Below, piece by piece: positions 54,741 through 64,000 of a DNA stretch of 64,000 bases. The position numbers and the translations under genes were made by a program. Numbering within the stretch: the stretch's first letter is position 1; each line of letters starts with the position of its first letter. The notes beneath the pieces are model-generated. The model was not told the DNA's origin. It did no database searches and was given only the letters and a program-made list of their open reading frames with translations. Source of the DNA: Ferrigenium straubiae (GTDB lineage: Bacteria > Pseudomonadota > Gammaproteobacteria > Burkholderiales > Gallionellaceae); contig JAHQXD010000001.1 in NCBI GenBank assembly GCA_019449655.1, positions 810,950 through 874,949 of the forward strand, given 5' to 3'.

Positions 54741-55511
54741 ATGGTCGTCTTCGCCATTTTCTTCACGCTGGGCGTGTGGCTGCTGCAACAGCAGGCCGCA
54801 TTGCCTGATTTTGCGTGGGCGTGGCTGCTGCCGCTCTTCCTCTTCACCCTTTTCTTCCTGCCCCGCGACAAGCAGCTTGCCCGCTATCTCCGCTTCCTGC
54901 TGCTCGCCGCCCTGGCCTGCGGGGCAGGCTTTTACCACGCCGCCTGGCAGGCCGGAGAGCGCCTTGCCGTGAGCCTGCCGGATGAATGGCAGGGGCGCGA
55001 CATCGAGGTGGTCGGCGTGGTCGCAGAGCTGCCGCGCCGCCACGAGCGTGGTTTGCGCTTCGGCTTCGACGTGGAGCAGGTCGTCACGCCGCAGGCCTTC
55101 GTGCCGCCGCGCATCTACCTCAGCACCTATTCCGACGACAAGACGGAGCCGTTCGAACTCAAGGCCGGGGAGCGCTGGCGGCTCACGCTACGGCTCAGGC
55201 AGCCGCACGGCACGGCAAACCCGCATGGTTTCGATTTCGAGCTCTGGGCGCTGGAACGCAACATCCGCGCGACAGGCTATGTACACAACAAGGGCGATAA
55301 CCGGCGCATCGACGAACTGGCGGACGGCCCCGGCTACCGCGTCGAAACCTGGCGCGAGGCGGTGCGCGACAGGTTCGATGCCGCGCTCGGCGGCGCGCCC
55401 TATGCCGGGGTGTTGAGCGCACTCGCGATCGGCGACCAGAACAGCATCCCGCCAGAGCAGTGGCAGGTGTTCACGCGCACCGGGGTCAACCACCTCATGA
55501 GTATTATGTAA
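54741..55511 (+). pseudogene. comEC: comEC, interrupted after residue ~256 by an integrated element
   Basis: The N-terminal third of ComEC/Rec2 is intact: two membrane helices, the DUF4131 domain (DIEVVGVVAELPRRHERGLR, LRQPHGTANPHGFDFELWALERNIRATGYV) and the start of the competence domain (YAGVLSALAIGDQNSIPPEQ WQVFTRTGVNHLMSI). ComEC normally continues LMSISGLH; here the frame ends MSIM-stop at 55511 and AT-rich foreign DNA begins. The usual length is about 750-800 residues. ComEC is the inner-membrane channel for transforming DNA, so natural uptake is probably lost while the element is present. The 3' part is not in the window. Confidence 0.9.
55500..55510. other. Left attachment junction of the integrated element
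   Basis: ComEC homology runs to the codons for LMSI (ending near 55505) and is replaced at once by non-homologous AT-rich sequence containing the serine recombinase 60 bp later. The crossover dinucleotide must lie in this interval. The right junction is outside the window. Confidence 0.7.
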
Positions 55512-55569
55512 CCATTAAAACATCTTTTCTGTACAATTCAATTTTACGTAACCCCTGCCAGAGCGAAGA

Positions 55570-57318
55570 GTGCCAAAAGCATATTCATACATCAGATTTT
55601 CATCAACAATCCAGCAAAAGGGCGATTCGCTAAAGCGACAAACCGTCCTTCGAGAAGTGTATTTAGCACAACATCCCGAACTCGAACTGGACACTACTCT
55701 GAATCTGACGGATTTAGGTGTTTCAGCATACGACAAATCAAATATTACAAAGGGAGCATTAGGGTATTTTCTAACGGCGGTCAAGGAGGGGAAGATTGAG
55801 CAAGGCTCATATTTGCTGGTTGAAAGCTTAGATAGATTATCTCGTGCTCAAGTAATGGATGCTCTTGAGGTTTTCTTAAGCATTTTAAATGCAGGGATCA
55901 CAATAGTTTCACTTACTGATGGGATGGTCTACAGCAGACAAGATGTGAACGATAATTTTACGAGTTTGATTATGTCTATCGTAATCATGAGTCGAGCTAC
56001 AGAGGAATCAGCTGCAAAAAGTGTACGAATACGTCGCAACTGGGATGTTAAACGAGAAAATATAGATAAAAAGCGATTGACTGCTCGCTGTCCATATTGG
56101 ATGAAGCCGACTTTAGATGCAACAGGCTTTGAACTTATTCCAGAACGTGTGAAAGTAGTTAAGAGAATTTTTGATATGGCAAAAGACGGGATTGGAAATA
56201 GCACTATAACGAAGCGATTGAATGAAGAAGGAATACCACCATTTTCCAGTAAAACAAATGGCTGGAACCCTTCGTATATTCAGAAAATGTTTAGCAGCAA
56301 AGCCTTGTATGGTGAGTTTCAAATGCATTTGCAACGCAACCGTGAGATTACTTCAGTATGCGAGCCAATAGCTAATTACTATCCAGCTATCATGAGTAAA
56401 GAAGAGTGGTTATTAGTTAATTCTATCCGTGTTGATAGGCGGACAAGAGGTGGTGTAAGCAAGGGTAAGAATTTGAGCAATTTGTTTTCTGGGCTACTGC
56501 GTTGCGGGTACTGTGCTGGTTCGATGGTAATGGGTGGATATGTCAATAAAAAACCAGATGGGACACGTCGAGAAGCGAAGTATGTTGCTTGCAGCAATGC
56601 TCGCCGTGGCTTGGGTTGCCGTTTTATACAGTGGGATTATTCAGAGCTTGAGCTTCAAATTATCAACTTCTGTAGATCGGTAGATTTCGCCGCTGCAATG
56701 AATAAACAATCTACAAGTAGTGCGGAAATTGAACATGCTCAAAAAAAGGTAATTGGCATAGAAGTCGAAATAGCAGATCAAGAATCAAAACTGAACAATC
56801 TGCTTGTTGCGATTGAGGATAATAAGGATGCAATACCAAAAACAGTAATGCGACGAATTTCTGAAATTGAGGTTGAGCTTACAAGCTTGAAAAATGAAAA
56901 GGAGTTGGCAGAATTTAACGCAGCTCGACTTGCATCTAATGCAGCAACACAGTCTCTGCAACAAGATGCCATAACTGAGTTAACTAAGCAGCTTAAAAAG
57001 CTGGACGGGACAGAACTCCACGATTTACGAATCAGGTTGTCAGAACGGATAAAAAGAGCAATTTTGCAGATTTATTTGTTCCCTATTGGCAGTTGGATTT
57101 CAGACGAAAAGCGTAAATTACAAGAAATTGAATTCCTTAAACTGGGCTTCACAAAAAGGCAGATTAAAAAGTATCACGATAGTTTGGGTGCGGCATCAGT
57201 AAAGGCAAACAGATTCATATTCATATTTTTTGAGAATGGAGAAAATCTGCGTGTGAGCGAAAATAATGTATTACACAACTTCAAACTTCTTTCAATTGAC
57301 GAATATCTGAAGCAATGA
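55570..57318 (+). CDS. Large serine recombinase (integrase)
   Basis: A GTG start gives 582 residues. The N-terminal resolvase domain has YSYIRFSSTIQQKGDSLKRQ (catalytic Ser near 11), LVESLDRLSRAQVMDALEVF and AAKSVRIRRNWDVKR. A recombinase domain follows (GFELIPERVKVVKRIFDMAK, then NEEGIPPFSSKTNGWNPSYI), then a zinc ribbon (LLRCGYCAGSMVMGGYVNKK ... ACSNARRGLGC) and a coiled coil (about 380-470). This is the layout of phage-type large serine integrases. It lies 60 bp from the comEC junction and transcribes into the element, as expected for the enzyme that integrated it. Confidence 0.93.
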   Translation: MPKAYSYIRFSSTIQQKGDSLKRQTVLREVYLAQHPELELDTTLNLTDLGVSAYDKSNITKGALGYFLTAVKEGKIEQGSYLLVESLDRLSRAQVMDALEVFLSILNAGITIVSLTDGMVYSRQDVNDNFTSLIMSIVIMSRATEESAAKSVRIRRNWDVKRENIDKKRLTARCPYWMKPTLDATGFELIPERVKVVKRIFDMAKDGIGNSTITKRLNEEGIPPFSSKTNGWNPSYIQKMFSSKALYGEFQMHLQRNREITSVCEPIANYYPAIMSKEEWLLVNSIRVDRRTRGGVSKGKNLSNLFSGLLRCGYCAGSMVMGGYVNKKPDGTRREAKYVACSNARRGLGCRFIQWDYSELELQIINFCRSVDFAAAMNKQSTSSAEIEHAQKKVIGIEVEIADQESKLNNLLVAIEDNKDAIPKTVMRRISEIEVELTSLKNEKELAEFNAARLASNAATQSLQQDAITELTKQLKKLDGTELHDLRIRLSERIKRAILQIYLFPIGSWISDEKRKLQEIEFLKLGFTKRQIKKYHDSLGAASVKANRFIFIFFENGENLRVSENNVLHNFKLLSIDEYLKQ

Positions 57319-57475
57319 TTTTGGTGACCTTAGAGGCATTAATTGTAACGAGTTAAGGAATTCCATTGCGATGATGAGAAAGTGCCCCAAAACGTCACCA
57401 GTGATGCTCTACGGTCAAGATTAAGATCGACTCTGCAAGACAGTTAGCAATGTTCCAATTTGAACAGTGCCAAAG

Positions 57476-57508
57476 AAAATGCCCTGCTTGTTATCGACAG
57501 GGCATTTT
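57476..57508. terminator. Terminator between integrase and leftward small-gene operon
   Basis: AAAATGCCCTG and CAGGGCATTTT form a perfect 11-bp stem around an 11-nt loop. A/T runs on both sides make it usable in both directions. It lies between the integrase and the convergent ribbon-helix-helix gene. Confidence 0.8.
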
Positions 57509-57512
57509 CGTT

Positions 57513-57665
57513 TCATCGTTGCGTGTTCGCTTCCTTGAATTTCCATAGAGCATGGCGATAAATGAAAGCTGGTGAAGTTCGCCATTTCTTAGCGTAATCG
57601 AGTACCCAGTTATGTAGCTCGACGGGCAGTCTAATGCTGGTTGAATGTTGATCAGGTTTTGTCAT
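57513..57665 (-). CDS. Ribbon-helix-helix (Arc/CopG-like) small protein
   Basis: A 50-residue protein read on the minus strand: MTKPDQHSTSIRLPVELHNW, then VLDYAKKWRTSPAFIYRHAL and a short charged tail. The STSIRLPVEL beta strand followed by two short helices is the ribbon-helix-helix pattern of Arc, CopG and MetJ repressors. AAGGA stands 5-7 bp before the ATG. Its start is 2 bp after the stop of the 59-residue protein, making it the third gene of an operon. It may repress that operon or regulate replication. Confidence 0.65.
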   Translation of the reverse strand: MTKPDQHSTSIRLPVELHNWVLDYAKKWRTSPAFIYRHALWKFKEANTQR

Positions 57666-57667
57666 GG

Positions 57668-57847
57668 TTATTCCTTTATAGCGACGAGGGTTAATGTGCC
57701 AGATGTACTTATTAGCGACTTGATATTGGCGATGAATACATTTAATTCTTTTTGATCTCGTACTTCGTTACAGATTATTTTCTTCACGCTGATTGCGTTG
57801 ATAGCTTTCACTAAATCGTTCCTGTTATTGATTTTGACTTGAAGCAT
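57668..57847 (-). CDS. Small protein, paralogue of the neighbouring 75-residue protein
   Basis: A 59-residue frame on the minus strand with AAGGA before its ATG: MLQVKINNRNDLVKAINAIS, then VKKIICNEVRDQKELNVFIA and NIKSLISTSGTLTLVAIKE. It aligns along its length with the gene just upstream: both open M(L/I)QVK and both end in a L-x-S-x-I-x-S-(S)GTLTL segment. No family is known to me. It lies between the 75-residue gene (9 bp) and the ribbon-helix-helix gene (2 bp). Confidence 0.6.
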   Translation of the reverse strand: MLQVKINNRNDLVKAINAISVKKIICNEVRDQKELNVFIANIKSLISTSGTLTLVAIKE

Positions 57848-57856
57848 ATGGATTCC

Positions 57857-58084
57857 TTAGTGATTAGACATAGTTGCTGTCAGGGTTAACGTTCCAGAAG
57901 ATGAATCGATCAGTGATTCAAGCTCGTCAACGAAACGTACGAAATCTGTTTTGCTAGCAATTTTGTTCATCTTGATGTTCTCTACGTTACTGGCATAGAT
58001 GACGTCCAGTAAATATCTGGCGTTCTTTATATTGATGCTAATCATGTTGAGTTCTCGTTGGTCTTTAGTTTTGACTTGAATCAT
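57857..58084 (-). CDS. Small protein, first gene of a three-gene operon
   Basis: 75 residues, MIQVKTKDQRELNMISINIK, then NARYLLDVIYASNVENIKMN and LESLIDSSSGTLTLTATMSN. A strong ribosome site (AAAGGAGATCAAC) precedes the ATG. It is a longer paralogue of the next gene, so the pair arose by tandem duplication. The fold seems to be alpha/beta with a C-terminal strand. Function unknown; position next to an iteron-like tract and a Rep gene suggests plasmid-type maintenance. Confidence 0.6.
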   Translation of the reverse strand: MIQVKTKDQRELNMISINIKNARYLLDVIYASNVENIKMNKIASKTDFVRFVDELESLIDSSSGTLTLTATMSNH

Positions 58085-58452
58085 GTTGATCTCCTTTATT
58101 GGTTGTTGTTATTGGATTACTGAATGAGTGAGTGACTGTGCTTGTCTGTGCTTGTCAGTATCGTTCAGTGTGTGTGTCTCTTGTCTGTGCTTGTCTGTCT
58201 CTATCTGTCACTGTCTGGATTGATCAGTCTTGTTACATGGTTCCAGTGATTAAGTAATCCAGTAATCCAGTGTTTACAGATATTCTAGATACACTTAATC
58301 CTATGGGGTTTCACCATAAGATTTCACTTTGCTCAATAATATATTTGCCGAGTTCGCCTCAGGCTTCACGTACTAATAATGTAGAGTGGCAGCATTCAAA
58401 CTGCCGATTTGAAACAGATAATGTATTTACCGAGATCGTCGGCGTTCAAGAT
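58085..58452. repeat. Repeat-rich non-coding tract, possible replication origin
   Basis: From 58130 to 58225 the plus strand is built of short direct repeats related to TGTGCTTGTCTGTGCTTGTC, with variants GTCTCTTGTCTGTGCTTGTC and CTGTCTCTATCTGTCACTG. Further on AAGTAATCCAGTAATCCAGTG repeats AATCCAGT. It lies immediately downstream of the Rep-like gene. Such tracts resemble iterons or other origin repeats. The + frame at 58270-58488 was not accepted as a gene. Confidence 0.5.
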
Positions 58453-58908
58453 TTAAAGCATGACAATGTTCAAATTGTCGTTTCGTAGCAAATAATTCGT
58501 GTCTTTCACGATGTAAGCTATTCGTCCAGCGGCTTCACCAATGTCCTGTACGTCAACCATCGTTCCAAAATGATCGAAGAATCCAATTGTTTTGTACCAG
58601 TGCTTGCGGACATAACTATTCATTTCAGGCAATGTTCTGTCTGTTTCATCTTGAAGAGCTACGATTAAATGAGCGTGTAGCATTCCGTCTACTTTGCCAG
58701 TTTCAATTGCTGCGATGATTTTCAGACGTTTTTCTTTACGTTTATATGCTCGGCTGTAGCAGAAATCGTTCAACTTATGAGCGATTTTGCTCAAGTCTTG
58801 CTCGAACTGAATCACGTCATTTTTAAAAGCATTCAGCGTGATGAAATAGCCTTTGGAATCGATAGAAAACTCGCTCGACAAGTCGGAAATCAGTTTATTT
58901 TTGTCCAT
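58453..58908 (-). CDS. Small HUH-type replication/relaxase-like protein
   Basis: 151 residues with three ordered motifs of HUH endonucleases: motif 1 GYFITLNAFKN (about 20-30), motif 2 DGMLHAHLIVAL (His78-x-His80, metal ligands) and motif 3 GRIAYIVKDTN (Tyr132-x-x-Lys135). HUH Rep proteins nick an origin and start rolling-circle replication; this one is short, like those of small plasmids and filamentous phages. It suggests the element can replicate, or once did, as a circle. A repeat-rich tract lies just downstream. Confidence 0.65.
   Translation of the reverse strand: MDKNKLISDLSSEFSIDSKGYFITLNAFKNDVIQFEQDLSKIAHKLNDFCYSRAYKRKEKRLKIIAAIETGKVDGMLHAHLIVALQDETDRTLPEMNSYVRKHWYKTIGFFDHFGTMVDVQDIGEAAGRIAYIVKDTNYLLRNDNLNIVML
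58462..58479. repeat. GACAAT palindrome at the rep gene end
   Basis: GACAATGTTCAAATTGTC is an inverted repeat (GACAAT ... ATTGTC, 6-nt loop) inside the last codons of the Rep-like gene. The same arms with a 3-nt loop recur at 59569-59583. Confidence 0.5.
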
Positions 58909-58965
58909 TTTTCAGCTAGTCACTGTATTTAATTGTGTATAGATGTATTTATACGAGACGCACGG

Positions 58966-59002
58966 AAAAGCGAGCAATATTTCAAAAATATTGCTCGCTT
59001 TT
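58966..59002. terminator. Strong terminator hairpin
   Basis: AAAAGCGAGCAATATTT and its exact inverse form a 17-bp stem with a 3-nt loop, ending in TTTT on either strand. It follows the stop of the 162-residue gene and precedes the rep promoter. Confidence 0.8.
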
Positions 59003-59018
59003 ATTCAACGATAATTGC

Positions 59019-59507
59019 TTAGGACTTGGAGCAATTCTTTATCGATTCAAGAATCCACTCAGCAACTTCTGGATTGCCAGTTTCTGAATAATATTCGTAA
59101 TCATCGTAGCTACAGATTTTCACGAAATACTCATTAACGAAGCAATCGAATCCATTTTGCTCATTTACTAAAGCAGCAGGAAGCACTGAAATTTCATTTT
59201 TTTGAAGTTTCAGCAAATCTAGATAAATTTGATAAGCGAGACACGTATAACCAATTTCATAAACCAGCCTTGCGGAGTCGATTGAATGAATTTTTGAGAA
59301 TTCGTAATTTCGTTCAAGAGCAGCGTTAAATTCAATTTCGCACTTTTCGTGAGGATTTTGAATTCCAAATAAATCTACGATTTGCTGAGCTGAGGTGAAA
59401 TCATTGCTGGTGTCATCGAAATTCCAGATAATTTTATTAATTCCGAACGGAAAACCAGTTAAATGGGTCTTTGTTGCGGCGTTGAATATTGCGGTATTTT
59501 TACTCAT
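59019..59507 (-). CDS. Hypothetical protein of the integrated element
   Basis: 162 residues, acidic, no membrane segment: MSKNTAIFNAATKTHLTGFP, then FGINKIIWNFDDTSNDFTSA, and a C-terminal CSYDDYEYYSETGNPEVAEW. AAGGAG precedes the ATG. It is followed by its own 17-bp hairpin terminator and preceded by palindromes shared with the next gene upstream, so it is a separate regulated unit. No family is recognised. Confidence 0.65.
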   Translation of the reverse strand: MSKNTAIFNAATKTHLTGFPFGINKIIWNFDDTSNDFTSAQQIVDLFGIQNPHEKCEIEFNAALERNYEFSKIHSIDSARLVYEIGYTCLAYQIYLDLLKLQKNEISVLPAALVNEQNGFDCFVNEYFVKICSYDDYEYYSETGNPEVAEWILESIKNCSKS

Positions 59508-59568
59508 TTGAAACTCCTTTATTGAAGGTAAATATTCAGATAACTCGTTGATATAACTTATTTAACCT

Positions 59569-59583
59569 GACAATTACATTGTC
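59569..59583. promoter_or_regulatory. GACAAT-TAC-ATTGTC palindrome upstream of the 162-residue gene
   Basis: GACAATTACATTGTC is a perfect two-arm palindrome 62 bp before the gene start. On the minus strand TTGAGA, a 17-bp spacer and TAAATA give a possible promoter spanning it, so the palindrome could be an operator. Confidence 0.45.
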
Positions 59584-59585
59584 TC

Positions 59586-59619
59586 AAATAAGCGAATTAA
59601 CAAGAATTGCCGTTTATTT
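59586..59619. promoter_or_regulatory. Palindromic operator-like element, copy 1
   Basis: AAATAAGCGAATT and AATTGCCGTTTATTT surround AACAAG. The core GCGAATTAA...GAATTGCCG is shared with copy 2 at 60192-60225. It lies about 80 bp upstream of the 162-residue gene. Confidence 0.55.
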
Positions 59620-59787
59620 GTTCTTTTAACCTGTTAATGTTTAATATGCCTTGACGATGAAAATCATCAACAAAATGACTGCTCAGAACCAGCGTTAAAC
59701 TGTCTATGTGTTGCTGGCGTAATTGTTTGATGCGGAGTGCTGCCTGCCGTGTGGATAGCGGCAATTTGACGATGGTGAATAGAACAA

Positions 59788-59835
59788 AAAACGACCGATT
59801 AATGACAGGTAGATTTGTCATTAATCGGTCGTTTT
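59788..59835 (-). terminator. Perfect 20-bp terminator hairpin
   Basis: AAAACGACCGATTAATGACA and its exact inverse are separated by 8 nt. On the minus strand the hairpin is followed by TTTTTTG, ideal for rho-independent termination of the 81-residue gene ending at 59866. Confidence 0.85.
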
Positions 59836-59865
59836 GACGCAAAGTTTATTTGCGTCGTTGGCGGA

Positions 59866-60111
59866 CTATGACCGCAAATCAACTCTACAACTTACCTCTT
59901 TGAGTATTTTGGGTAGTAGTCGGCTTGGATATTTCTTTATATATTCTTCGGCAATGGTCATCAAAAATGGTGTATGTAAAATTATGCCATTTTCGACAAA
60001 TTTTCTAGCTTCAGGGCGTTGTATACAATGAATTGGCAATTTGAATTCGGAAGTTAGTTTGTTAAGTTCATCAAGTTTTGCTACTGTTAATTTTTTTCTA
60101 AATACGCTCAT
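59866..60111 (-). CDS. Hypothetical 81-residue protein
   Basis: MSVFRKKLTVAKLDELNKLT, then SEFKLPIHCIQRPEARKFVE and a basic end (KKYPSRLLPKILKEVSCRVD). It is followed by a strong terminator and preceded by a divergent promoter region with an operator-like palindrome. No family is recognised; the size and helical content would suit a small regulator or antitoxin. Confidence 0.55.
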   Translation of the reverse strand: MSVFRKKLTVAKLDELNKLTSEFKLPIHCIQRPEARKFVENGIILHTPFLMTIAEEYIKKYPSRLLPKILKEVSCRVDLRS

Positions 60112-60191
60112 TTTAAATCTCCATTATGTTAGTTAAAAATCGAACAAGCAATTCATTAACTGCATGTTTTCTCGACTTAATTAAGTATACG

Positions 60192-60225
60192 ATTTAAGCG
60201 AATTAAACTGAATTGCCGCTTAAAT
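60192..60225. promoter_or_regulatory. Palindromic operator-like element, copy 2
   Basis: ATTTAAGCGAATT and AATTGCCGCTTAAAT surround AAACTG. It shares the core with copy 1 and lies between divergent genes (81 bp from the leftward start and 38 bp from the rightward one). The similarity continues for about 15 bp on the right (CTGTTAAT in both). Confidence 0.6.
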
Positions 60226-60262
60226 TAACCTTTAAACTGTTAATAAGTGCTATGCTTCGGCT

Positions 60263-61123
60263 ATGGAAACCACTAAGAAAAGACCGTCAGGCAGACACTT
60301 TCCCTACCAGCACCCGACTTTCGGCACGAAAAGCAATCCAAAGACCGAATCGGCTTGGAAAAAGTCGGTGTATTACTGGTGGTGGGCGTACCTGAAGCGG
60401 AACGCTGAATACGTCGCTTGCTGTGAGAGTGGCGGCAAAGGAAAGATGGCAGCTTTGTATGCTGACTTCGGTGATATTCGAGGCAATGACTTCAAGGCAT
60501 GGTGGGACGAAAAGCCCTTGCCGTTCGATGATAAACGAGGAGCTCAGCTTTTTGCGGAGCCACGGGCAGAAGATAGTTTCAGGGTTCTCCAGAAGGACGA
60601 GGTGGTCGCTGGTGACAGCGGGACGCTGGTCTTAAGTATTCCCCTTAACCTGCCGAAGAAATTCCTAGAACAGCATTTTAGGAAGCTTCTGAAAATTCAT
60701 CATGAGGGACTGGACGTACAACCCAAGGGCGATGACAAGCGGGGGCATCAGTACGCCAAGCACAGCAACGCAACTTACAAATTCGTCGGTCAGCCAAATC
60801 CAGCAGGATTGGAGCTTACGCTGAAGATTTATGACTTCTGGATGGAGAATCCAGAAATGAAACTATGGGAAATTGGAAACGCCCTGCCCAAATTTATGGT
60901 TGCTCATAAGATCAAGTCGTCCGATAAGAATTCAACGGACAACAAGAATGTACTGGCAGCATCTGTCAGCCGCTATCTACGAAATGCTAAAAAAGATATC
61001 GAAGCAACGGGCAGAGGATGCTTTCTTTCAGAGAGACCGAAACCGAAACCGAAAGAGAAGAAAGTAACGACTGGCAGAGTGCATTTGCTCAGCGATCCGC
61101 CGAGCGTTCCAAAATCCTCCTAA
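60263..61123 (+). CDS. Hypothetical protein, possibly DNA- or nucleic-acid-associated
   Basis: 286 residues, soluble and basic at both ends. The start METTKKRPSGRHFPYQHPTF leads to an aromatic block (WKKSVYYWWWAYLKRNAEYV). The middle has LSIPLNLPKKFLEQHFRKLL KIHHEGLDVQ, and the end is Lys/Pro-rich (SERPKPKPKEKKVTTGRVHL). The gene is the only plus-strand one in this part and faces an operator-like palindrome. I recognise no family; phage or plasmid proteins of this size are sometimes structured like this. Confidence 0.6.
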   Translation: METTKKRPSGRHFPYQHPTFGTKSNPKTESAWKKSVYYWWWAYLKRNAEYVACCESGGKGKMAALYADFGDIRGNDFKAWWDEKPLPFDDKRGAQLFAEPRAEDSFRVLQKDEVVAGDSGTLVLSIPLNLPKKFLEQHFRKLLKIHHEGLDVQPKGDDKRGHQYAKHSNATYKFVGQPNPAGLELTLKIYDFWMENPEMKLWEIGNALPKFMVAHKIKSSDKNSTDNKNVLAASVSRYLRNAKKDIEATGRGCFLSERPKPKPKEKKVTTGRVHLLSDPPSVPKSS

Positions 61124-61232
61124 CGATCTTTTGTGTGCTGAGTTTTTCTGAGGTGTTGCGGTCTGTTGCTTTGCTTTCGGCAATCTTCTTCTGTTCGGCG
61201 TTGTAGATAACCCATTCTTTGAATCCCATCAT
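61089..61232 (-). CDS. Small 47-residue protein, possible tail of the restriction cassette
   Basis: An open frame with a good ribosome site (AGGGAGAAG before ATGATG): MMGFKEWVIYNAEQKKIAES KATDRN, then TSEKLSTQKIVRRILERSAD. It is Lys/Arg/Glu-rich and helical. Its last 35 bp overlap the convergent 286-residue gene. It is the fourth frame downstream of the methyltransferase, on the same strand, but a 95-bp gap separates it from vsr. Confidence 0.45.
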   Translation of the reverse strand: MMGFKEWVIYNAEQKKIAESKATDRNTSEKLSTQKIVRRILERSADR

Positions 61233-61327
61233 TTTGCTTCTCCCTAAATATTTTCACGGGCAATGAAGTATGCCACTATTAATATTTATCTAACCACTCA
61301 ACAGTTATGAGTAGTTCGAAGCTAATT

Positions 61328-61750
61328 TCAATTCATTGGCTTTGTCAGTTTGGCAGCCAATTTGCTCACAGTTTTGGGCAGAGTTTTGTTAATCTCACAT
61401 TCCCAAACAACCAGAACTCTCCAGCCCATTTTCTTTAGTGCTGCTTTAGATTGACGGTCTCTTTCAACATTCCGTTCCAATTTTGATACCCAATACTCGA
61501 CCCTAGACTTTGGCATTCGTCCACCTTTACACCCCTTATGCTGATGCCAGAAACAGCCATGTACAAAGATCACGGAATGGTATTTTGGCAAAACGATGTC
61601 TGGTTTACCTGGCAAACTAGCTACACATAACCTAAAGCGGAATCCCAAGCGGTGCAAAGCCGACCTAACCAATATTTCAGGTAAAGTGTCTGACGATCGA
61701 ACTTTGCTCATTATTTCACTGCGTTTACTTGGAGAAAAACTGTCAGCCAT
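61328..61750 (-). CDS. vsr: Very short patch repair endonuclease Vsr
   Basis: 140 residues. The Vsr pattern is complete: SKRSEIMSKVRSSDTLPEIL, GKPDIVLPKYHSVIFVHGCF WHQHKGC and YWVSKLERNVERDRQSKAAL KKMGWRVLVVWECEI. Asp51 is at the same position as in the E. coli enzyme. Vsr nicks T-G mismatches made by deamination of 5-methylcytosine, so it protects sites methylated by the adjacent C5-methyltransferase. It lies 20 bp after the putative restriction gene. Confidence 0.95.
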   Translation of the reverse strand: MADSFSPSKRSEIMSKVRSSDTLPEILVRSALHRLGFRFRLCVASLPGKPDIVLPKYHSVIFVHGCFWHQHKGCKGGRMPKSRVEYWVSKLERNVERDRQSKAALKKMGWRVLVVWECEINKTLPKTVSKLAAKLTKPMN

Positions 61751-61770
61751 AAGGTCGCTTCCACAGACAG

Positions 61771-62526
61771 TTACAGCACCGAATAAAAAGTGTCATCAAA
61801 TCCAATTTGCTTCAGAACCGCCTCGCTAGAAATTTCTTTGGGCTTTTTGATTGAAAGTTTTAATACATTAAGAGGAACATCTTCGACTATGGTGAATTGT
61901 GAACCATGAGGCTGCCAAGTGAATTTGTGCACGCCTTGTGAGTTAAAGCCTTCAAGGTTGTTATTTTTATTCCATTTCCAAGAATACTGATCCACCGGAT
62001 AGAGGTCTGTATCAAATTCGAAGACCGCCACCTTAGAAAGGTCTTTATCCTTAATTAGGACAGCCGTTCTCAAATTGGTGAATTTTGCCCTTACCTCTTT
62101 AACTCTACTATTCCATATTTCAAGCACCATCCCGCCAACCAAATTTGGATCATGTTTCTTTCTGTCAACCGCTTTATCGAAAGAGTACGCTGGGGAGTTT
62201 CTTCCCGAAATCAATCTCACGGTTCGATTAGTTTTCTTAGTTGGAGATGTTGCAACCTTGCCCTTAACAGTTTTTGCCCCCCAAGCTGTAGACGATTGAA
62301 TATGAGTTATATCGTCCAAGCCCACATTGGATGGTGACCATTGGGCATTTATGCATTCCGCAAAAATTCTCTCCCAATCTTTCCCCTCCAAGTCGGCATT
62401 ACTTCGAGTGGCAAGATGCACACAAATGTGCTGCGCTAGCTTCTTCTTAAATTCTGCGGGAAACGAATTTAACGGGTATAGCGGGTTGCTTTTGACGGCT
62501 TTTCTTAATTTGGGTATCTGATTCAC
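61771..62526 (-). CDS. Putative type II restriction endonuclease
   Basis: 251 residues of no recognised family, placed between a C5-methyltransferase and vsr, where restriction genes usually sit. A possible PD-(D/E)xK core can be traced: Glu in DWERIFAECINAQW, Asp in NVGLDDITHIQ, and Lys in AWGAKTVKG. The position and this spacing are the evidence; the nuclease call is inference. It starts MNQIPKLRKAVKSNPLYPLN. Confidence 0.55.
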   Translation of the reverse strand: MNQIPKLRKAVKSNPLYPLNSFPAEFKKKLAQHICVHLATRSNADLEGKDWERIFAECINAQWSPSNVGLDDITHIQSSTAWGAKTVKGKVATSPTKKTNRTVRLISGRNSPAYSFDKAVDRKKHDPNLVGGMVLEIWNSRVKEVRAKFTNLRTAVLIKDKDLSKVAVFEFDTDLYPVDQYSWKWNKNNNLEGFNSQGVHKFTWQPHGSQFTIVEDVPLNVLKLSIKKPKEISSEAVLKQIGFDDTFYSVL

Positions 62527-62652
62527 TTTGGGTAACCTTCGGACTGAAAGATATCAGACCTCAGACTACCTCATTTATATCAAATACTGAAAGCATCCTT
62601 TATGTGCATTTGGTATTCCTGCCAACCAAGGATATCGCCCTTTAGGATAATT

Positions 62653-63594
62653 TCATCTTTTCGATTTACTTGGATTCTTGTGCTTAAGCATTTTGATCAT
62701 CTCGCCAGCAATGTATTGAATTACGGGGACAGAAACAGAATTCCCAGCTACTTTCCTAAGCTGTGAATAAGGGATGTTGATCTTAAAATCATCTGGGAAG
62801 CCTTGCAAACGCAACATTTCTCTATCGGTGAGCCTTCTTACCCCATTGACGACCAGATAGTTATAACTGCCCCCTGCCCTCAATGCGCATGAATAAGGCA
62901 AAGCGGAAATGTTGCCTCCTATGTTTTCATGCCATATAGATGGGTAAGGCGCATTTGGTTTTACTGCCTTTATACGCTTTTCTTTCAACCGCTCGCTCAG
63001 AAAATAGTTAGCATCAACCTCGCCATCCGGCAGTAGCACTTCTGATAGAGGCTTGTAATAACCCAAAGGCTTGGGAAATTCAAAGGGGAGCTGATCTAAG
63101 AATCCGACAATGTATATCCGCTCACGTTTTTGCGGAAGACCGTAGTCAAGGGAGTTCAAGACTTTAGAATAAACTGTATAACCGATTTCCCTAAGCCTTT
63201 TCATAATGACAGAGAATGTTTGCCCCCCATCATGAGTTGTTAATCGCTTAACATTCTCTAACAAGAAAGCCCGTGGTCGTTTTTCAGCAAGAATAGCTTC
63301 AATGTTAAAAAACAAAGTGCCTCTGGTGTCAGAAAACCCCAAGCCCTTCCCGGCTATTGAAAATGGTTGGCACGGAAAACCAGCCAATAAAATTTCGTGA
63401 TCAGGAATCTCTTTAGGCGGGATTTCGTTGATGTCCCCGAATGGCTTATGCCCAAAGTTCTCTTCATACATAGCTTGAGCGTATTTATCCCACTCGGAAG
63501 CAAGTACGGTGACGCATCCATGCGCCTCAAAGCCCAATCGAATCCCACCGATGCCAGCGAACAAATCGATGGTTCTAAATTTTTTAGCTGTCAT
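62653..63594 (-). CDS. DNA (cytosine-5) methyltransferase
   Basis: The ATG at 63594 gives 313 residues; an ATG 12 bp further upstream is possible. All core motifs are visible: I (TIDLFAGIGGIRLGFEAHGC), IV (LLAGFPCQPFSIAGKG, catalytic Cys75), VI (AFLLENVKRLTTHDGG), VIII (LPQKRERIYIVGF), IX (RRLTDREMLRLQGFPDDF) and X (VAGNSVSVPVIQYIAGEM). The target-recognition region between VIII and IX is about 80 residues. It is the modification half of the cassette with the putative nuclease and vsr; the target site cannot be read from sequence. Confidence 0.95.
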   Translation of the reverse strand: MTAKKFRTIDLFAGIGGIRLGFEAHGCVTVLASEWDKYAQAMYEENFGHKPFGDINEIPPKEIPDHEILLAGFPCQPFSIAGKGLGFSDTRGTLFFNIEAILAEKRPRAFLLENVKRLTTHDGGQTFSVIMKRLREIGYTVYSKVLNSLDYGLPQKRERIYIVGFLDQLPFEFPKPLGYYKPLSEVLLPDGEVDANYFLSERLKEKRIKAVKPNAPYPSIWHENIGGNISALPYSCALRAGGSYNYLVVNGVRRLTDREMLRLQGFPDDFKINIPYSQLRKVAGNSVSVPVIQYIAGEMIKMLKHKNPSKSKR

Positions 63595-63682
63595 TATGCG
63601 ATGCAAACAGTGAAATCATTTTGATAAAAAATTGCCATATAATGAAAAACTATATTCATAATATTTAAGCGGGTACCAAAAT

Positions 63683-64000
63683 ATGATTATGAAAATTCAA
63701 TCCAAAGACGAATGGACTGCATTCAAACAATGGCAAATAATGGAACTGAGTCTCTCCCCCAAGGTTGCGGCAGATAATCTTTCTAGGTGCAGGCGCATTG
63801 AGAAAATATTTTCAATTAACCTCAAGGCTACAACACGCAATGAGAAGGACTATCTCATTTTGATGGATAAAATTGGTATCTATGCTCATAAAACCAGTCG
63901 AAGCAGATTCTCAGCCTATGCTTTATCAGCTTGCTTAAGGAGTGCGGCAAAAAAATACGCATTATTTTCTTGGGGCGAAAAAATTTCTAAATACCCTCGA
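63683..64000 (+). CDS. Unknown protein, open to the right edge
   Basis: From the ATG at 63683 (or 63689) 106 codons run to the window edge without a stop: MIMKIQSKDEWTAFKQWQIM, then VAADNLSRCRRIEKIFSINL and a basic end. It diverges from the methyltransferase with an 88-bp gap that must hold both promoters. Composition is that of a real soluble protein. It resembles no family I know; a regulator, a recombinase N-terminus or further cargo are possible. Confidence 0.6.
   Translation, partial: MIMKIQSKDEWTAFKQWQIMELSLSPKVAADNLSRCRRIEKIFSINLKATTRNEKDYLILMDKIGIYAHKTSRSRFSAYALSACLRSAAKKYALFSWGEKISKYPR

Follow-up and report, generated by a model that had tools for sequence, protein, structure and literature searches.

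A large serine recombinase element interrupts comEC at conserved codons in Ferrigenium straubiae, and its integrase has relatives in comEC and comM of other proteobacteria

The window analysed here, a stretch of 64,000 nucleotides from Ferrigenium straubiae, contains a comEC reading frame that breaks off within conserved codons directly before a large serine recombinase (LSR) gene. The locus raises the question of whether a mobile element has integrated site-specifically in comEC, and of what this means for the gene and for the element. Transformable species require ComEC to import DNA, and comEC mutants have served as a non-transformable control; for comM it has been asked whether mobile elements single out competence genes deliberately, and the question is still open (PMC11472951).

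Results

The ORF at 54741-55511 (+) encodes the N-terminal part of ComEC, with a DUF4131 domain at residues 25-182 (Pfam, E 3.7e-34) and a match to only the first 28 of the 270 positions of the Pfam Competence profile. A sequence-only reading of the window had described a normal ComEC frame broken inside the LMSISGLH codons, with an LSR gene directly after the break. Both points were confirmed: the break was mapped to 55500-55501 within these codons, and the LSR gene starts with GTG at 55570, 58 bp past the ComEC stop codon. Host sequence runs up to ...AACCACCTCATG-AG (codons AAC CAC CTC ATG AG), AG being 55500-55501; the translated product ends in ...TGVNHLMSIM-stop, and the final codons of the truncated ORF (TATTATGTAA) are element-derived. 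The features around the two junctions are as follows.

54741-55501, + strand: 5' part of comEC, 253 whole codons and the first 2 bases of a Ser codon, cut by the insertion
55500-55501, + strand: attL crossover dinucleotide AG, placed by the AG at both ends, the symmetric attP arms and agreement with 12 other insertions
55502-55524, + strand: P' arm of attP, TATTATGTAACCATTAAAACATC, an inverted repeat of the far-end arm (16/16 bp, 6-2-6 spacing)
55502-64000 in the window, no strand: integrated element, 12,672 bp in total, continuing to the equivalent of position 68173
55570-57318, + strand: large serine recombinase (integrase), 582 aa, with Resolvase, Recombinase and Zn_ribbon_recom domains (Pfam) and a match to the PHROG 95 integrase (E 1.6e-72)
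68172-68173 in window numbering (L003 15122-15123): attR partner AG, shared by both ends

The right junction and the 3' part of comEC were looked for beyond the window. Searching the host genome (2.66 Mb assembly, 99.99% complete, 5 contigs) with the Competence profile recovered the missing half at G000:C4:879115 (profile positions 25-267, E 2e-52), on the same contig and strand and 12,672 bp away, at about window position 68172. The 3' fragment is thus present at the other end of the element. A complete second comEC, which would have spoken against the earlier reading, was not found in this genome by the same search; the profile matched at two places only, with the complementary pieces 1-28 and 25-267. 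The attR sequence is ATGTTTTAATGGTTACTTTATT-AG-CATCTCCGGCCTGCATATC. When the flanks were joined at this AG, which both ends share, they gave an open ComEC frame of 793 aa that reads NHLMSISGLHI, and both halves are fully open in this genome. The two profile pieces complement each other, the joined reading frame is uninterrupted, and 12 other genomes show the same junction; the split is therefore far beyond chance.

The reciprocal join yields a predicted attP, ATGTTTTAATGGTTAC-TTTATT-AG-TATTAT-GTAACCATTAAAACAT, whose arms form an inverted repeat (16/16) centred on AG. Such inverted-repeat arms around a 2-bp core common with attB place the enzyme among the large serine recombinases; all three Pfam domains scored above their cut-offs in the one 582-aa protein, and its ORF is intact. 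A crossover at AT rather than AG would also be in frame, but it was rejected for its asymmetric attP arms, AG giving the 6-2-6 symmetry and agreeing with the relatives. When the element was scanned for arms at attP spacing, only attP and one other place were found, the latter a terminator-like palindrome. A long perfect palindrome between two element ORFs, at about 59787-59836 of the window, is probably a terminator. No tRNA was found near the insertion.

The GC content of the element is 41.9%, against 64% in both flanks. The following genes were annotated within the window part of the element.

58453-58908, - strand: small Rep/G2P-like protein (REP_ORF2-G2P, E 3e-6, at the family cut-off)
61328-61750, - strand: Vsr mismatch endonuclease, cargo (Pfam Vsr, E 5.7e-30; PADLOC Vsr)
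61771-62526, - strand: 251-aa orphan between Vsr and the methyltransferase, a candidate restriction endonuclease by position only
62653-63606, - strand: type II C5-cytosine methyltransferase, cargo (DNA_methylase, E 8.6e-89; PADLOC MTase_II)

The methyltransferase, Vsr and the orphan likely form a type II restriction locus, with the endonuclease assigned by position only; the orphan had no match in Pfam, NCBIfam, PHROGs, PADLOC, PDB or plasmids. Further cargo comprises a winged-helix protein of replication-initiator type, an IHF-beta-like protein with an extended tail, an SNase-like nuclease and a DUF6641 protein. The element also carries a second recombinase, a tyrosine recombinase of 200 aa that consists of the catalytic domain alone (L003 11680-12282, window equivalent 64730-65332), a 57.5% relative of which lies near a comM-inserted element of Afipia (L077). 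Among the element ORFs scanned, PHROGs, Pfam and NCBIfam revealed no capsid, packaging or lysis genes, and no relaxase accompanied by type IV secretion genes was found, only the small Rep/G2P-like protein and no secretion genes. No directionality factor was recognised in the element. A prophage was considered and rejected, as capsid and lysis genes were not recognised and the integrase has none but distant relatives in viral contigs (no more than 43% in a segment); the attP pattern had no match in viral contigs. Since no capsid or lysis genes were recognised, we regard the element as a small integrative island and not as a recognisable prophage.

Named genomes were scanned for relatives of the integrase with an alignment of four sequences as query, which gave 80 loci; the seeds were biased, being two members from comEC, one from comM (G297) and a further relative that was later found in comM (G320). 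The closest relative within the order (53%, genome G330) lies in comEC at the same codons, with the halves on two contigs. All relatives with 48-53% identity are in comEC at these codons, namely in a marine gammaproteobacterial MAG, Rhodocyclaceae UBA2250, Dechloromonas hankyongensis, STC_100 (two copies), an Azonexaceae MAG, a Methylobacter MAG and a Gallionella MAG. In addition, comEC is split by a second clade in Paraburkholderia tagetis, Duganella aquatilis and Herminiimonas, and by an alphaproteobacterial clade in Microvirga, Bosea and Methylobacterium. Integrases occupy the same comEC codons in 13 genomes including the host's own, and the earlier proposal that conserved motif codons serve as attB holds. 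Among the 12 genomes that contain the related loci, profile searches detected no intact comEC; most had complementary 5' and 3' pieces, Gallionella had the 3' piece only, and the 5' piece of Microvirga was recognised through its DUF4131 domain. Halves on one contig are about 18 to 34 kb apart, and 69 kb apart in STC_100, which has two integrase copies. Little of the present element's cargo recurs in the relatives, so the common part consists of the integrase and the att sites.

In the integrase tree, the window protein falls in a clade of nine rows (SH-aLRT 99), all in comEC. Over the whole tree, comEC targeting requires at least three changes, and a single comEC clade was rejected (p-AU 0.02). 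With its precise insertion at a comEC site that is conserved between hosts, and with no intact second copy of the gene, the element would belong with the integrative elements of comK, comYC, comM or comEC type that disrupt competence genes.

Several comEC loci showed further peculiarities. Two identical integrases (L065 and L066, JAQTWB010000006.1) lie about 34 kb apart in one split comEC whose halves are 68.75 kb apart; the second integrase is preceded by exactly the sequence that attL and attR predict for attP, and the pair is therefore an apparent tandem double insertion. Extra attP-like palindromes, GTTTTAATAG-22 nt-CTATTAAAAC or near, occur beside the real att sites in L056 (3377-3418), L063 and L064 (near attL) and L066 (9866-9907); they may be left over from further elements or be sites where regulators bind. 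In Dechloromonas hankyongensis (L157), the 3' comEC open frame has only 236 codons, versus about 520-540 in most of the clade, a sign of post-insertion decay.

All 13 flank pairs, our own and the 12 others, gave in-frame DNA when joined, reading HL(M/I/V)(S/A/V)ISG(L/S)H or, in alphaproteobacteria, YH(I/V)VSISGLH. Within the two beta/gamma clades, the codon that comes next after HL(M/I/V) always supplies the core with its first two bases, whichever codon that is; AG (AGC/AGT), TC (TCG/TCC), GT (GTG) and GC (GCG) were seen, the 2-bp core varying with the codon of the host. The core of the alpha clade lies one codon earlier, as the GT of GTC. The polarity of integration by serine integrases is set by the core dinucleotide alone. 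The reversed orientation of the element in Gallionella (TC core, seen at one junction only) and in P. tagetis (palindromic GC core) fits this rule.

An 81-bp comEC query matched in 49 of 61 same-genus genomes, among them the host's own with its split site. The site was empty in all 29 congener loci inspected, each with an open frame of more than 500 codons across it, and the core position was AG in 24 and TC in 5 of them. No integrase relative was detected in the 60 host relatives searched (36 of the same genus).

A second competence gene, comM, is split by or abuts the integrase locus in 41 of the 80 family loci, with insertion at about residues 211-217 (36 loci) or at residues 31-37 (5 loci). 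Where both comM halves are present, the majority of joins map to the HNLL codons immediately ahead of the Walker A motif; for L112 the automatic search returned no join, and for L111 the join was implausible. Competence genes thus account for 55 of the 80 loci (14 comEC and 41 comM), the remainder being only partly identified, and some members of the wider family adjoin genes unrelated to competence. Two integrases of a rhizobial clade of the wider family (L117, L120, L126, L128) adjoin flagellar genes, a possible further target: flagellin in L120 and a FlgE-like ORF in L126, the match of which ends inside the D2 domain. In Bosea, two near-identical integrases have different neighbours, an SPFH/Band 7 gene in one locus and comM in the other (L136 and L137).

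Discussion

Taken together, the best explanation is, with high probability, a precise site-specific integration in comEC by the adjacent LSR, and the structure of the junctions strongly supports integration by attP x attB recombination. An attP with palindromic arms and a central AG would be recombined conservatively with an attB in the comEC codons HLM-S-ISGLH by the element's own, presumably active LSR, a member of a proteobacterial LSR family that would use conserved comEC or comM codons as attB. Integration would leave one AG at each end. Recombination of attL with attR, which would need a directionality factor, could excise the element and restore wild-type comEC exactly, so that the interruption may be reversible.

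ComEC is cut just inside its channel domain and there can thus be no full-length DNA-uptake channel while the element is integrated; loss of ComEC function in this state is near certain. Whether competence would be affected depends on the host, in which comM, dprA and pilQ are present and no ComEA was found above the cut-off. Given this ComEA result, the host may not be naturally competent; most congeners likewise gave no ComEA above the cut-off, which was exceeded in only 3 of 21 genomes tested. As the element sits in a DNA-uptake gene and its integrase family is mostly found in comEC or comM, it probably keeps out incoming DNA by which it could be removed. The likely benefit to the element would be protection against deletion by transformation, a hypothesis put forward in PMC4774983, with which the concentration on two competence genes is consistent, though it is not proof. 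We consider it an even matter whether one LSR family across alpha-, beta- and gammaproteobacteria is specialised on the transformation pathway, with attB in comM (either right ahead of Walker A or close to the N terminus) or comEC (HLMSISG), more than one switch between the genes and a 2-bp core following host codon choice, disabling transformation being the selected reason because transformation can cure the element.

Only somewhat less probable is that comEC and comM were chosen solely for their conserved, near-universal codons, which offer a stable address in a dispensable gene, competence loss being a tolerated side effect. In its favour, each of the two genes is hit in codons that rank among its most conserved, competence may always have been absent from this host, and the wider-family members beside unrelated genes would fit as well. 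Against it, two genes of a single pathway account for 55 of the 80 family loci, comEC targeting arose more than once (at least three changes; p-AU 0.02 for one clade), and competence genes are also targeted by unrelated elements (PMC4774983). The use of both genes could, on the same explanation, stem from similar half-sites (comM CAC AAC CTG CTG ATG, comEC AAC CAC CTG ATG AGC); this resemblance is weak, since the half-sites are not aligned at the core. A dead remnant, no longer able to excise and leaving comEC a plain pseudogene, seems unlikely to us. It would agree with the lack of a recognised directionality factor and of capsid or type IV secretion genes, which means that transfer would need a helper, and the 236-codon 3' frame of Dechloromonas indicates that fixation and decay do occur; the integrase ORF, however, is intact, attL and attR are exact and neither comEC half has lost its frame. 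An assembly artefact or a chance joining of unrelated sequence beside comEC is scarcely credible even in an assembly of 5 contigs, for both junctions lie within one 1.12 Mb contig with a common 2-bp core and a perfect palindromic attP, and 12 other genomes have the same arrangement.

A single recombinase family in both comM and comEC of distant hosts makes purposeful targeting testable, and, since the gene is nearly universal and its att sites are short, they are candidates for new integrase/attB pairs. Serine-recombinase insertion in Streptococcus comEC and insertion in comM are known already. Our literature search on serine integrases with comEC attB or comM, which was not exhaustive, returned nothing on this LSR family, and one proteobacterial LSR family using both genes is, as far as we found, undescribed.

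Among known systems, the A118-type prophage of Listeria, which splits the competence gene comK at a fixed att site, concerns a regulatory gene of a Firmicute and is a full prophage with proven excision, whereas here an uptake-channel gene is interrupted by a small island without recognised phage genes, the excision of which we infer. The elements phi1207.3 (Tn1207.3) and phi10394.4 of Streptococcus pyogenes resemble ours at the gene level, being serine-recombinase elements in the comEC coding sequence; phi1207.3 and its relatives use a fixed GA dinucleotide in comEC, which is left at both ends (PMC4260502). However, phi1207.3 is a 52 kb conjugative prophage with three serine recombinases (PMC4260502), and the present element is a 12.7 kb island. 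Kinship with its end recombinases Orf56 and Orf57, which are thought to drive integration, was rejected, as they are only 23-24% identical to this integrase. Both elements carry a C5-cytosine methyltransferase, that at 62653-63606 being 46.5% identical to SpyIM of phi1207.3; this likeness is probably a coincidence, because the restriction subunits annotated beside SpyIM are much longer than the 251-aa ORF. In pneumococcus, a mefA cassette in comEC inhibits transformation, as cited in PMC4774983. The mobile elements in comM, such as the AbaR islands of Acinetobacter baumannii and those of CF65_00446 type, disrupt a competence gene at a conserved site like the comM members described here (PMC4774983, PMC11472951); unlike the LSR family, AbaR islands are Tn7-like transposition elements, and comEC is not a target of the comM elements. 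In proteobacteria, comEC is also interrupted in Variovorax, but by a prophage with a tyrosine integrase (VAI-C_pp_2; PMC9658991), and in Piscirickettsia salmonis by various transposable elements at non-identical positions and with eroded frames (PMC12955456), in contrast to the exact and recurrent junctions of the family described here.
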